From the NCBI GenBank assembly GCA_019749805.1, contig JAIEPH010000062.1, positions 45,911-109,910 on the forward strand: a stretch of DNA of 64,000 bases, given 5' to 3'. A model generated the notes under the pieces. The model was not told where the DNA came from. It ran no database searches and saw nothing but the letters and a program-made list of their open reading frames with translations. Position 1 is the first letter of the stretch; every line of letters begins with the position of its first letter. Of this stretch, positions 9,670 to 13,298 are shown in pieces. The stretch is from Mycobacteriaceae bacterium. GTDB taxonomy: Bacteria; Actinomycetota; Actinomycetes; Mycobacteriales; Mycobacteriaceae. Made by a program: the position numbers and the translations under genes.

Positions 9670-10515
9670 GTGAGCGACGAGAATCTGGCCGATCGGATCG
9701 GCGGTCTGGTGGCGATGTCGTCGGGGGACGGGCGTCTGGACACCCTGATGCGGCTGACGTGCGGCAGGGCATTGGGTTTGTATCCACTGCCGATGGAGGT
9801 CGATCTGGTCGATGGGGCGGCCGAGCACGAGCCGATGGTGTGCGCGTTCACCGAGCAGTTCGCCGTCGACGTGACGGGCATCGGTGACAACCAGCGCAAG
9901 CAGCTGGCGGCGGCCCTGGGCGACAACGTGTTTCGAACCGTGGTGATGATCTTCGTCGCCGATTTCGTCCCGAGGGTGTGGGCGGCGTTCGAAGCGCTAG
10001 GGCTGCGCAGGCACGGCAACGGCGGCACCGTCGAGTGGGACCACGACTCCGATCCGACCGACGCCCTGCTCAACGGGTTCCTGCCCGCGGTGGCACGGCT
10101 GCGGGGGCTGGACCCGGTGACGACGGAGGTCGTGCGGCTGCGGGGTGCGACGCAGCACAACTGCCGACTGTGCAAGTCGCGCCGGGAGACCAACGCGCTG
10201 GACGCCGGCGGATCCGAGGATTTGTACGGCGACATCGCGCAGTACGAGTCGTCGGAGAAGTTGACCGAGGCGCACAAGGCGGCGTTGCGGTTCGTCGACG
10301 CGATGATCTGGTCACCGTCACAGATCAGCCCCGACCTCGCCGCGGAGGTTCGCCGGCACTTCTCGAAGGATCAGGCGTTCGAGTTGACACTGGACATCAT
10401 GCGCAACGCCGCCAACAAGATCATGGTGTCGCTGGGGGTGGATGCCCCGCTCGTGACGGACGGCACCGAACTGTTCTCCGTCGATGCCGACGGGCAGACG
10501 GTCTCGGCTCAGTAG
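9670..10515 (+). CDS. carboxymuconolactone decarboxylase / AhpD-like protein
   Basis: AhpD-type CxxC in RGATQHNCRLCKSRRETNAL and helical CMD-like context. Confidence 0.7.
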   Translation: MSDENLADRIGGLVAMSSGDGRLDTLMRLTCGRALGLYPLPMEVDLVDGAAEHEPMVCAFTEQFAVDVTGIGDNQRKQLAAALGDNVFRTVVMIFVADFVPRVWAAFEALGLRRHGNGGTVEWDHDSDPTDALLNGFLPAVARLRGLDPVTTEVVRLRGATQHNCRLCKSRRETNALDAGGSEDLYGDIAQYESSEKLTEAHKAALRFVDAMIWSPSQISPDLAAEVRRHFSKDQAFELTLDIMRNAANKIMVSLGVDAPLVTDGTELFSVDADGQTVSAQ

Positions 10516-10666
10516 TCGTGGAAGACGACGTTGTCCTCGATCGCGTGCAGGACGTGCGGGCAGCCAGCTCCAGGGCCTCGTCGACGTGGTCGCGGGGCAC
10601 CGGTCGGTCGCGCTGGAACATGCGAATCGAGCGGCGGTCGGTGACGGCCGTTTCGACGTCGCACAT
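10514..10666 (-). pseudogene. truncated nitroreductase N-terminus
   Basis: SD-like AGGAGGAG then ATG at 10666, MCDVETAVTDRRSIRMFQRDRPVPRDHVDEALELAAR (nitroreductase N-terminus), then coding sense is lost. Confidence 0.6.
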
Positions 10667-10735
10667 GGTGCTCCTCCTGCCGCGGCGGGGGCAGGTGGAG
10701 CGTATGCGACCATTGGTGCCGCGAAACTGTGAGCA

Positions 10736-10809
10736 GGGGCGGTAGCTCAGTTGGTTAGAGCCGCGGACTCATAATCCGTTGGTCGCGGGTTCGAGCCCCG
10801 CCCGCCCCA
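10736..10809 (+). tRNA. tRNA with CAT anticodon (tRNA-Met; Ile2 not excluded)
   Basis: Acceptor GGGGCGG pairs with CCGCCCC; D-stem GCTC/GAGC; anticodon arm GCGGA-CTCATAA-TCCGT; T-arm GCGGG-TTCGAGC-CCCGC. Confidence 0.95.
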
Positions 10810-10853
10810 CAGCGAATTTTGTGCGATGTCGGTTGAACCTTGACGCTCGCTTG

Positions 10854-10922
10854 ATGAGGGAGTTGAGCGTGGCCGAGCAGAGGTATCAGGCCGTGTGGGC
10901 GGTGATCGGCGTCCATCACTGA
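10854..10922 (+). pseudogene. N-terminal stub of an IS481-family transposase
   Basis: ATG AGG GAG TTG AGC GTG GCC GAG CAG... encodes MRELSVAEQRYQAVWAVIGVHH*, resembling the start of mycobacterial IS481-type transposases, then stop. Confidence 0.6.
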
Positions 10923-10991
10923 CCAAAGTCGTGCTCACCTGACGGTCCGGGCGCACAATGGAGGTGTACGTCTGAAACCTGGGGAGCCGCG

Positions 10992-11459
10992 ATGAGCGAG
11001 CAACTGTACGACTATTTCGGTGCGATCTTCCAGCGGTACTTCAGACCCGCCCTCGATGCGTATCCGCGAACGGGTGGAGCACTCGTCGAAAGCTTGTTCA
11101 CGCTGACTGATGACGTCCCGGATCGATTGGCACAGAGCCGGCGTGTCGCAATCGCATGGGGCACAGCAGAGAGCCCGGACGCCAGGTTTACCTCGGAACT
11201 CTTCGTGATCACCCAACACGGGTTGATGTATGCCGCCGGGTTCAACGAGTCGCGCCGGGCGCTGTATTACTTGGCCACGCCGCCCGCATTGTTCGATCCG
11301 TTCGTCGATCAGGTTGACACCGCCGAACTGCCGGAGGGCGCGATAGTCGCGGTGGACAGTCGGTTCGGCCGCGATCTCGCATCAGCGCATCCCATGGACG
11401 CCGCGCTTCGCCGGATACTCGATGACCACCTGGCGCTCCGGGTGGATCTGCCCGCGTAG
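10992..11459 (+). CDS. hypothetical protein (155 aa)
   Basis: ORF with good codon usage, ATG after a GGGGAG-like RBS; no family recognised. Confidence 0.6.
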   Translation: MSEQLYDYFGAIFQRYFRPALDAYPRTGGALVESLFTLTDDVPDRLAQSRRVAIAWGTAESPDARFTSELFVITQHGLMYAAGFNESRRALYYLATPPALFDPFVDQVDTAELPEGAIVAVDSRFGRDLASAHPMDAALRRILDDHLALRVDLPA

Positions 11460-11599
11460 CTATTTCTTCGCGGCGGCCGGTTGTGTCCGGTGGCGTTTTG
11501 GTCCGCTGGGCACCTTGCCGCACCCTGCCCAGCGGAGGACGATGTAACCCGACGGCAGCGCCGTCGTGACGCTGCCCCGTCATCACGAGGAGGCAGATT

Positions 11600-12220
11600 A
11601 TGTACGCGAGAACGACCACCCTTCGATCAAACAGAGATTCCATCGACGCGGGTATCGCCAATGTCCGCGACCATGCGATGTCCGAGCTGCAGGGCATCGA
11701 CGGCTATGTCGGTCTTTCGTTGTTGGTCGACCGGACATCGGGGCGCTGCATCGCCACCACCGCCTGGGAGACCGAGGAGGCGATGCGCGCCAGCGACGAC
11801 GCGGCACGGGAGATTCGTCAACGCGCCGCGGAGGCGTTCGGCGGCGAACCGGACGTCGCCGAATGGGAGATCGCGGTCCTACACCGTGATCATCAGTCCC
11901 GTGAGGGCGCCTGCGTCCGCGCCACCTGGGTCAAGGTGGAGCCCGACCAGATCGAGCGGGGCATCGACATCTTCAAGATGGGTGTGCTGCCCGCACTGGA
12001 CGAACACGAAGGGCTCTGCAGCGCAAGCCTGTTGGTCGACCGTGCGACGGGGCGCGGAGTGTCTTCGGTGGCCTACGACAGCTCCGAAGCACTACAGCAC
12101 AACATGGGCAAGATCGAGGAACTGAGGTCCGCGAGCGCCCGGGAAGCCTCCGCAGAGATCCTCGACGAGTGCAACTTCGAGTTGGCGATCGCCCACCTGC
12201 ACGTTCCCGAGATGGCCTGA
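11600..12220 (+). CDS. hypothetical protein with two repeated dimeric alpha/beta-barrel-like halves
   Basis: RBS GAGGAGG upstream; internal repeat GYVGLSLLVDRTSGRCIATTAWETEEAMRAS / GLCSASLLVDRATGRGVSSVAYDSSEALQHN. Confidence 0.75.
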   Translation: MYARTTTLRSNRDSIDAGIANVRDHAMSELQGIDGYVGLSLLVDRTSGRCIATTAWETEEAMRASDDAAREIRQRAAEAFGGEPDVAEWEIAVLHRDHQSREGACVRATWVKVEPDQIERGIDIFKMGVLPALDEHEGLCSASLLVDRATGRGVSSVAYDSSEALQHNMGKIEELRSASAREASAEILDECNFELAIAHLHVPEMA

Positions 12221-12367
12221 CGACCGACTGCCGCCTATCAGCGTTGCGAGGTCCGACAGCGATCCGAACGTTCTCCGGCTCATTGGGCCTGAGCCCATGA
12301 TTCGATTCTGCTACCGGAATTGAATGGCTAACGACGGCTCTGGGCGCGACAGTCGACCGGTCGTGCG

Positions 12368-12583
12368 TCAGGCGGCAATCACCTGTGGCGCGGGCAGGTA
12401 GGACGCCGACCAGGCGGTGAAGTCGCCTCTGCACTCGCGGGGAGCGCCGATCCGCACGTTGGCAACGGCTTCTCCGGCCCGGCGGGCAAGGATGTGAATC
12501 TCGGCGGTGATGAAATTGTTGATGTGCACGGGATGCATGTGGACCGGTACCGCGACCTCGACGGCCTTCCAGTGACCATTCAT
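12368..12583 (-). CDS. small hypothetical protein (71 aa)
   Basis: ATG at 12583 preceded by GAGAGGA; protein-like composition. Confidence 0.45.
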   Translation of the reverse strand: MNGHWKAVEVAVPVHMHPVHINNFITAEIHILARRAGEAVANVRIGAPRECRGDFTAWSASYLPAPQVIAA

Positions 12584-12820
12584 GACGATGTCCTCTCGCC
12601 TCGGTGAGCGGCGATCGGATTACCGTGACGACGCTGCTCGTGCTTTTCGGCGGCTCTGCAATGCGGGAACCGTTAAGAGCAGTGTTGGTCGCTGATCTTG
12701 GAGGTTTCTAAAGCGCCGAAAACGTCGACTAACTAGTACGCCGCGATGAATCGGGCCTAGGCCGCCCTTCCAGTGTTGGATGCGGCTGGACACGACGATC
12801 TTGCGGTAGATCGTCCGAAT

Positions 12821-12884
12821 GTAGGCCTTGGGTCAGAGCCGCGGGCTCATAATCCATTGGTCGCGGGTTCGAGCCTGGGCAGTG
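12821..12884 (+). pseudogene. degenerate tRNA(CAT) copy
   Basis: 12835-12875 matches tRNA 10757-10797 at 39/41 positions; no pairing 3' acceptor strand. Confidence 0.8.
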
Positions 12885-13298
12885 AACTGAGTGCAGGTCC
12901 TGCGCGGCCGGCAAGTCGCACGCGGTTACTCGACGCTCGAAGTGTCCGACCGCGCTCTTGTCGATGCGCGCCCGATCCGAATCCGAGTGCTGCGTCTGTG
13001 CACACAGCGTTTCGACGGCGGCCAGCCTGGTGCTGGCTGCTTAACACCACAGTTGCACCAGCGGCCGTCTAACAGGGGATAGCGGACCGACTCGAAGTCC
13101 ATTGGACGCAACCTGTCCCATCCCGTGCTGCCTTCAAGGCTAGCGTTTAGTAGGCGAAAACCACAGGGTGGTGAAGCCCCGTTTTCACAGGATTTCGGCA
13201 AGGTCTGAAGGTCAGTCAAGCTGCGAACTTCGGTTGAGCGACCAGGCGTGGGCGGTTACCGCCGGGACGGCTCGTCGTGATCCAAACCCGCCCGGCGT

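Follow-up and report, generated by a model that had tools for sequence, protein, structure and literature searches.

Mobile elements that integrate into tRNA genes leave a repeat that reaches the 3' end of the tRNA, and the former 3' flank of the tRNA lies beyond that repeat. In mycobacteria, the prophages phiMmar10 and phiMAB_1 are integrated in tRNA-Met (PMC3986857), and we found comparable elements in relatives at the tRNA(CAT) gene of the window, i.e. the 64,000-nucleotide stretch of contig JAIEPH010000062.1 (C107) analysed here, whose numbering is used throughout. G126 hosts a 38-kb element whose tyrosine integrase gene (PF00589, E = 1.2e-19) lies immediately 3' of the tRNA and whose 39-bp attR corresponds to 10772-10810. 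About 32 kb are inserted in G368 (attR = 10754-10810) and 0.85 kb in G342 (attR = 10757-10810), while G117 harbours a 5.1-kb island (L042 5969-11142) with a perfect 54-bp att duplicate (attR = 10757-10810), among whose ORFs of at least 90 aa none resembled an integrase by eye. Three IMG/VR prophages (L123, L125 and L131) encode an integrase closely related to that of G126 (phmmer E ~1e-169), located 50-60 bp 3' of the 41-nt match in the same tRNA. The background statement of the first-pass annotation, that integrases commonly use tRNA 3' segments as att sites, holds for this gene: tRNA(CAT) is an integration hotspot in the genus. Phage matches of the tRNA 3' half were largely phage-encoded tRNAs and therefore do not identify an attP.

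The intact tRNA of the window (10736-10810, plus strand) has the anticodon CAT and was called tRNA-Met by ARAGORN (Rfam: 10736-10809, 72.5 bits); it is identical to the tRNA of G082, G342, G117 and G368 (75/75). Its variable loop, TTGGTCGC, is one that we take to be typical of the E. coli Ile2 (lysidine) tRNA, and judged by its sequence the gene may encode a tRNA-Ile2 instead of a tRNA-Met. This is the resident gene, found where it usually lies, 3' of a gene for a 281-aa protein. It is directly followed by a feature overlooked in the first-pass annotation, the remnant of the head of an IS481-type transposase (10829-10909, plus strand); the full-length transposase in G368 is of the IS481 type. 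This sequence is the usual 3' flank of tRNA(CAT) within the genus, being found 3' of the tRNA or of attR in M. tusciae, G147, G082, G117, G368, G151 and G231. Since it stands directly 3' of the tRNA, as in empty sites, the tRNA site of the window is empty. Another empty state is represented by G082, in which a single tRNA is followed by the IS481-type head and then by a 71-aa ORF.

A partial copy of the tRNA lies 2 kb downstream, in the same orientation. The match of 12835-12875 to 10757-10797 at 39 of 41 positions, from which this study started, was confirmed and can be extended to 12831-12875 against 10753-10797 (plus strand, 42/45). With an E-value of 8.7e-13 over the whole 6.48-Mb genome, it is not a chance match. 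Both differences within the 41 nucleotides (A to G and G to A) are located in the anticodon stem, as had been described. The copy retains the complete anticodon loop and the larger part of the T arm, lacks the acceptor strand and the 5' half, and was recognised neither by ARAGORN nor by a sensitive Rfam scan of 12700-13100 (E up to 1); it is not a working tRNA, in line with the earlier view, and no function is expected of it. Its right edge corresponds to position 10797, which is 13 nt before the tRNA 3' end, whereas the duplicates of G117, G342, G368, G231 and G126 all reach 10810. A pattern search of 397 genomes of the genus, in which a non-T base was demanded before AGAGCC so that duplicates with a T there (e.g., that of G368) were left uncounted, did not find the copy elsewhere: the single other match outside a tRNA was the attR of G117, and the remaining matches were tRNA alleles. 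Among the genomes searched, the event that gave rise to the copy is specific to the window genome. Alleles of the tRNA with a C-G or a T-A pair in the anticodon stem were compared as donors, and because the copy has three mismatches to each of them, this comparison cannot name the donor tRNA; the GGTC alleles of G055, G106 and G177 differ from the copy at two positions.

The setting of the copy became apparent from the comparison with three close relatives, namely G147 (L041), G126 (L068-L070) and Mycolicibacterium tusciae DSM 44338 (L112), which share the upstream flank at 95-96% identity. The copy directly abuts, at 12830/12831, the remnant of a gene for a LuxR-type response regulator (12761-12830, minus strand), which had also been overlooked and of which about 41 frameshifted C-terminal codons are left (tblastn of the 222-aa G147 protein retrieved residues 181-221 only). 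The intact 222-aa LuxR of G147 contains a GerE domain (PF00196, E = 1.7e-16). G147 aligns collinearly with 10829-12830 of the window (89%), continues with intact luxR, Transgly_assoc and STAS genes, and homology to the window returns at 12985. The same three genes are intact in M. tusciae and G126, where homology returns at 12966, and M. tusciae has 1437 bp in place of 12831-12965 of the window; the right flank in which homology to all three relatives is resumed extends over 12960-13201. In the window, luxR codons 1-180, Transgly_assoc and STAS (1.44 kb) are swapped for about 130 bp, consisting of the tRNA piece and about 84 bp of other DNA, and at the left join the CTTG of luxR meets the TTGG of the tRNA with a 3-bp overlap (TTG). 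None of the three relatives has the copy at the luxR position, and all of them have the two genes at 10992-12220 of the window (hereafter cargo). The copy is therefore younger than the cargo and lies at a deletion/replacement junction.

We consider the copy to be probably, though with clear room for doubt, debris at this junction, captured when the deletion was sealed. A break in the window lineage would have removed the 5' 180 codons of luxR together with Transgly_assoc and STAS (1.44 kb in M. tusciae), and the ends would then have been joined via a filler of about 130 bp, made up of the 45-bp tRNA fragment, with its TTG overlap at the luxR end, and the adjacent ~84 bp. Mycobacteria possess Ku/LigD end joining, and we infer that an illegitimate event of end joining sealed the gap. 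The fragment could have been supplied by the tRNA 2 kb upstream or by the att site of a tRNA-targeting element; the latter origin is plausible because the tRNA is a hotspot. The right part of the replacement (12876-12959) had only its self match in its own genome, only matches of 20-60 bp at chance level in 41 relatives, and nothing beyond the tRNA piece in phages and plasmids; a search with one viral-contig junction pattern gave no match either. That these ~84 bp are matchless is consistent with a patchwork filler, and the whole filler of about 130 bp may be of mobile-element origin. The window resembles filler-capturing deletion/insertion junctions in its loss of 1.44 kb, the short overlap at one join and a patchwork insert of more than one source. 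It differs from filler-DNA junctions in that end joining is here a putative mechanism and one piece of the filler matched nothing searched. The position of the left edge of the copy (10753-10757) speaks against debris, as it is close to the left edges of the att duplicates in G368 (10754), G117 and G342 (10757) and G231 (10759).

This shared left edge, within the same few bases, favours a rival account that we regard as unlikely, although it deserves serious attention, in which the copy is the trimmed att core (attR or attP) of a former tRNA-targeting prophage or island that was lost, together with the last 13 nt of the tRNA, along with the 5' part of luxR. The hotspot itself, proven by G126, G368, G117, G342 and the three IMG/VR prophages, argues in the same direction. 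However, all att duplicates seen in relatives run to 10810, and the copy adjoins luxR to its left and unmatched DNA to its right, neither of them element DNA or the 3' flank of the tRNA. Moreover, no integrase was found on C107 among the PF00589 matches listed, and nothing closely related to the G126 integrase is encoded in the window genome (best match 29% identity).

The copy does not bound a mobile island: the observation made in the first-pass annotation is real, its interpretation as an island is not. According to that interpretation, a decayed 2.1-kb island stretches from the tRNA to the copy, holding two hypothetical genes and one small ORF, an inventory that agrees with the 155-aa protein, the 206-aa protein and the 71-aa minus-strand ORF described below. 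Absence of the cargo from the corresponding position of G082, G278 and G342, and its slightly lower G+C content (63.0% vs. 66.3%), would fit an island. Nevertheless, we judge it very improbable, since G147, with the same gene order, M. tusciae and G126 all have the cargo without such a copy, G147 contradicting it outright, so that the cargo is not missing wherever the copy is missing. As for the proposed search for an empty site, G082 does provide a single tRNA and no cargo, but those three relatives keep the cargo and lack the copy. Furthermore, the usual 3' flank directly follows the tRNA, not the copy, the gene cut by the copy is luxR and not part of the cargo, none of the main ORFs of 10810-12880 encodes an integrase, and the lack of an integrase among the PF00589 matches listed for C107 weighs here as well. 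Of the alternative first-pass wording, one side of an older integration, what survives is the weak sense that the scrap may derive from the att site of some element, while the tRNA and the copy bracket no island. Like phiMmar10, phiMAB_1 and the elements of G126, G368, G117 and G342, the window involves the same tRNA type or gene and a duplicate of the tRNA 3' portion in the same orientation. In the genuine elements of relatives, however, the duplicate extends as far as the tRNA 3' end, standing at the far side of the inserted DNA; in the window it falls 13 nt short, luxR is cut, and the tRNA retains its usual 3' flank.

The cargo itself begins with a gene for a 155-aa protein (10992-11459, plus strand) that ends, at its C-terminus, in a piece of glucose-6-phosphate dehydrogenase (PF00479, E = 5.9e-7). 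Its residues 88-152 match NF009492 (E = 4.4e-12, far below the cut-off), and the C-terminal 65 residues align with positions 106-170 of glucose-6-phosphate dehydrogenase, with DSRFG at the position where this enzyme usually has the motif EKPFG. Because many Mycobacterium genomes contain DNA that matches its coding sequence at ~70-91% (loci L051-L067), the ORF looks like a retained gene, not like debris. It is followed by a gene for a 206-aa protein with an ABM (antibiotic biosynthesis monooxygenase) domain (11600-12220, plus strand; PF03992, E = 2.4e-5, above the cut-off). The 71-aa ORF ("S"; 12368-12583, minus strand) is a conserved right-hand neighbour of the tRNA hotspot, present at the locus in M. 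tusciae, G126, G147, G342, G082 and G278; a GTDB scan with this ORF retrieved M. tusciae only. The order of the cargo genes (10953-12239) in the window and G147 is opposite to that in M. tusciae (L112) and G126 (L070), with the same orientation.

Two further explanations concern the copy alone. It could be what is left of a decayed tandem tRNA array or of another tRNA gene, such as one that tRNA-dependent lysogeny leaves behind (PMC10865867). G151 offers some precedent, as it holds two intact copies of the tRNA (L043 7308-7382 and L044 12841-12916) separated by 35.5 kb, with tldD/pmbA between them. We nonetheless find a remnant of this kind hard to credit: only one tRNA was called by ARAGORN at the locus in G147, G126, G082, G278 and G342, M. 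tusciae likewise has one match, and in the window the intact tRNA is the resident one 3' of the 281-aa gene, the copy beginning abruptly within luxR. Alternatively, unrelated contigs might have been fused through the tRNA repeat during assembly, the genome being a draft of 125 contigs. An artefact of that sort is extremely improbable, as the copy has three mismatches to the tRNA over its 45 bases, is located mid-contig (C107, 58741 of 109910), and is adjoined by 84 bp without other occurrence in the assembly.

Seen as debris of a sealed deletion, the copy is a commonplace scar in the genome, close to a tRNA at which mobile DNA often lands. A partial tRNA repeat can pass for the end of an island, and here it was the close relatives that dated the copy after the cargo and placed it at an unrelated deletion. 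The documentation of a busy tRNA(CAT) hotspot in Mycobacterium is also of practical use in island annotation. If the 45-bp fragment were a spare landing site for tRNA-targeting integrases, elements could insert there and leave the tRNA gene untouched; the chance that it acts in this way seems to us next to negligible.

Several other variations were noticed around this tRNA. In G231, a 52-bp duplicate of the tRNA 3' part (L115 9806-9857) lies about 550 kb away from the tRNA gene, with the IS481-type head behind it. G106 shows the reverse of the usual 3' duplicates, in that the tRNA 5' part (10738-10779) is copied at L045 7639-7680, which is 2.3 kb upstream of its intact tRNA. The window itself is a mosaic in this region: upstream of ~10508 it tracks M. 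tusciae and G147 (~96%), while 10515-10810, including the tRNA, tracks G082 and G342 and is mostly missing from M. tusciae, G147 and G126, whose tRNA allele differs from that of the window.
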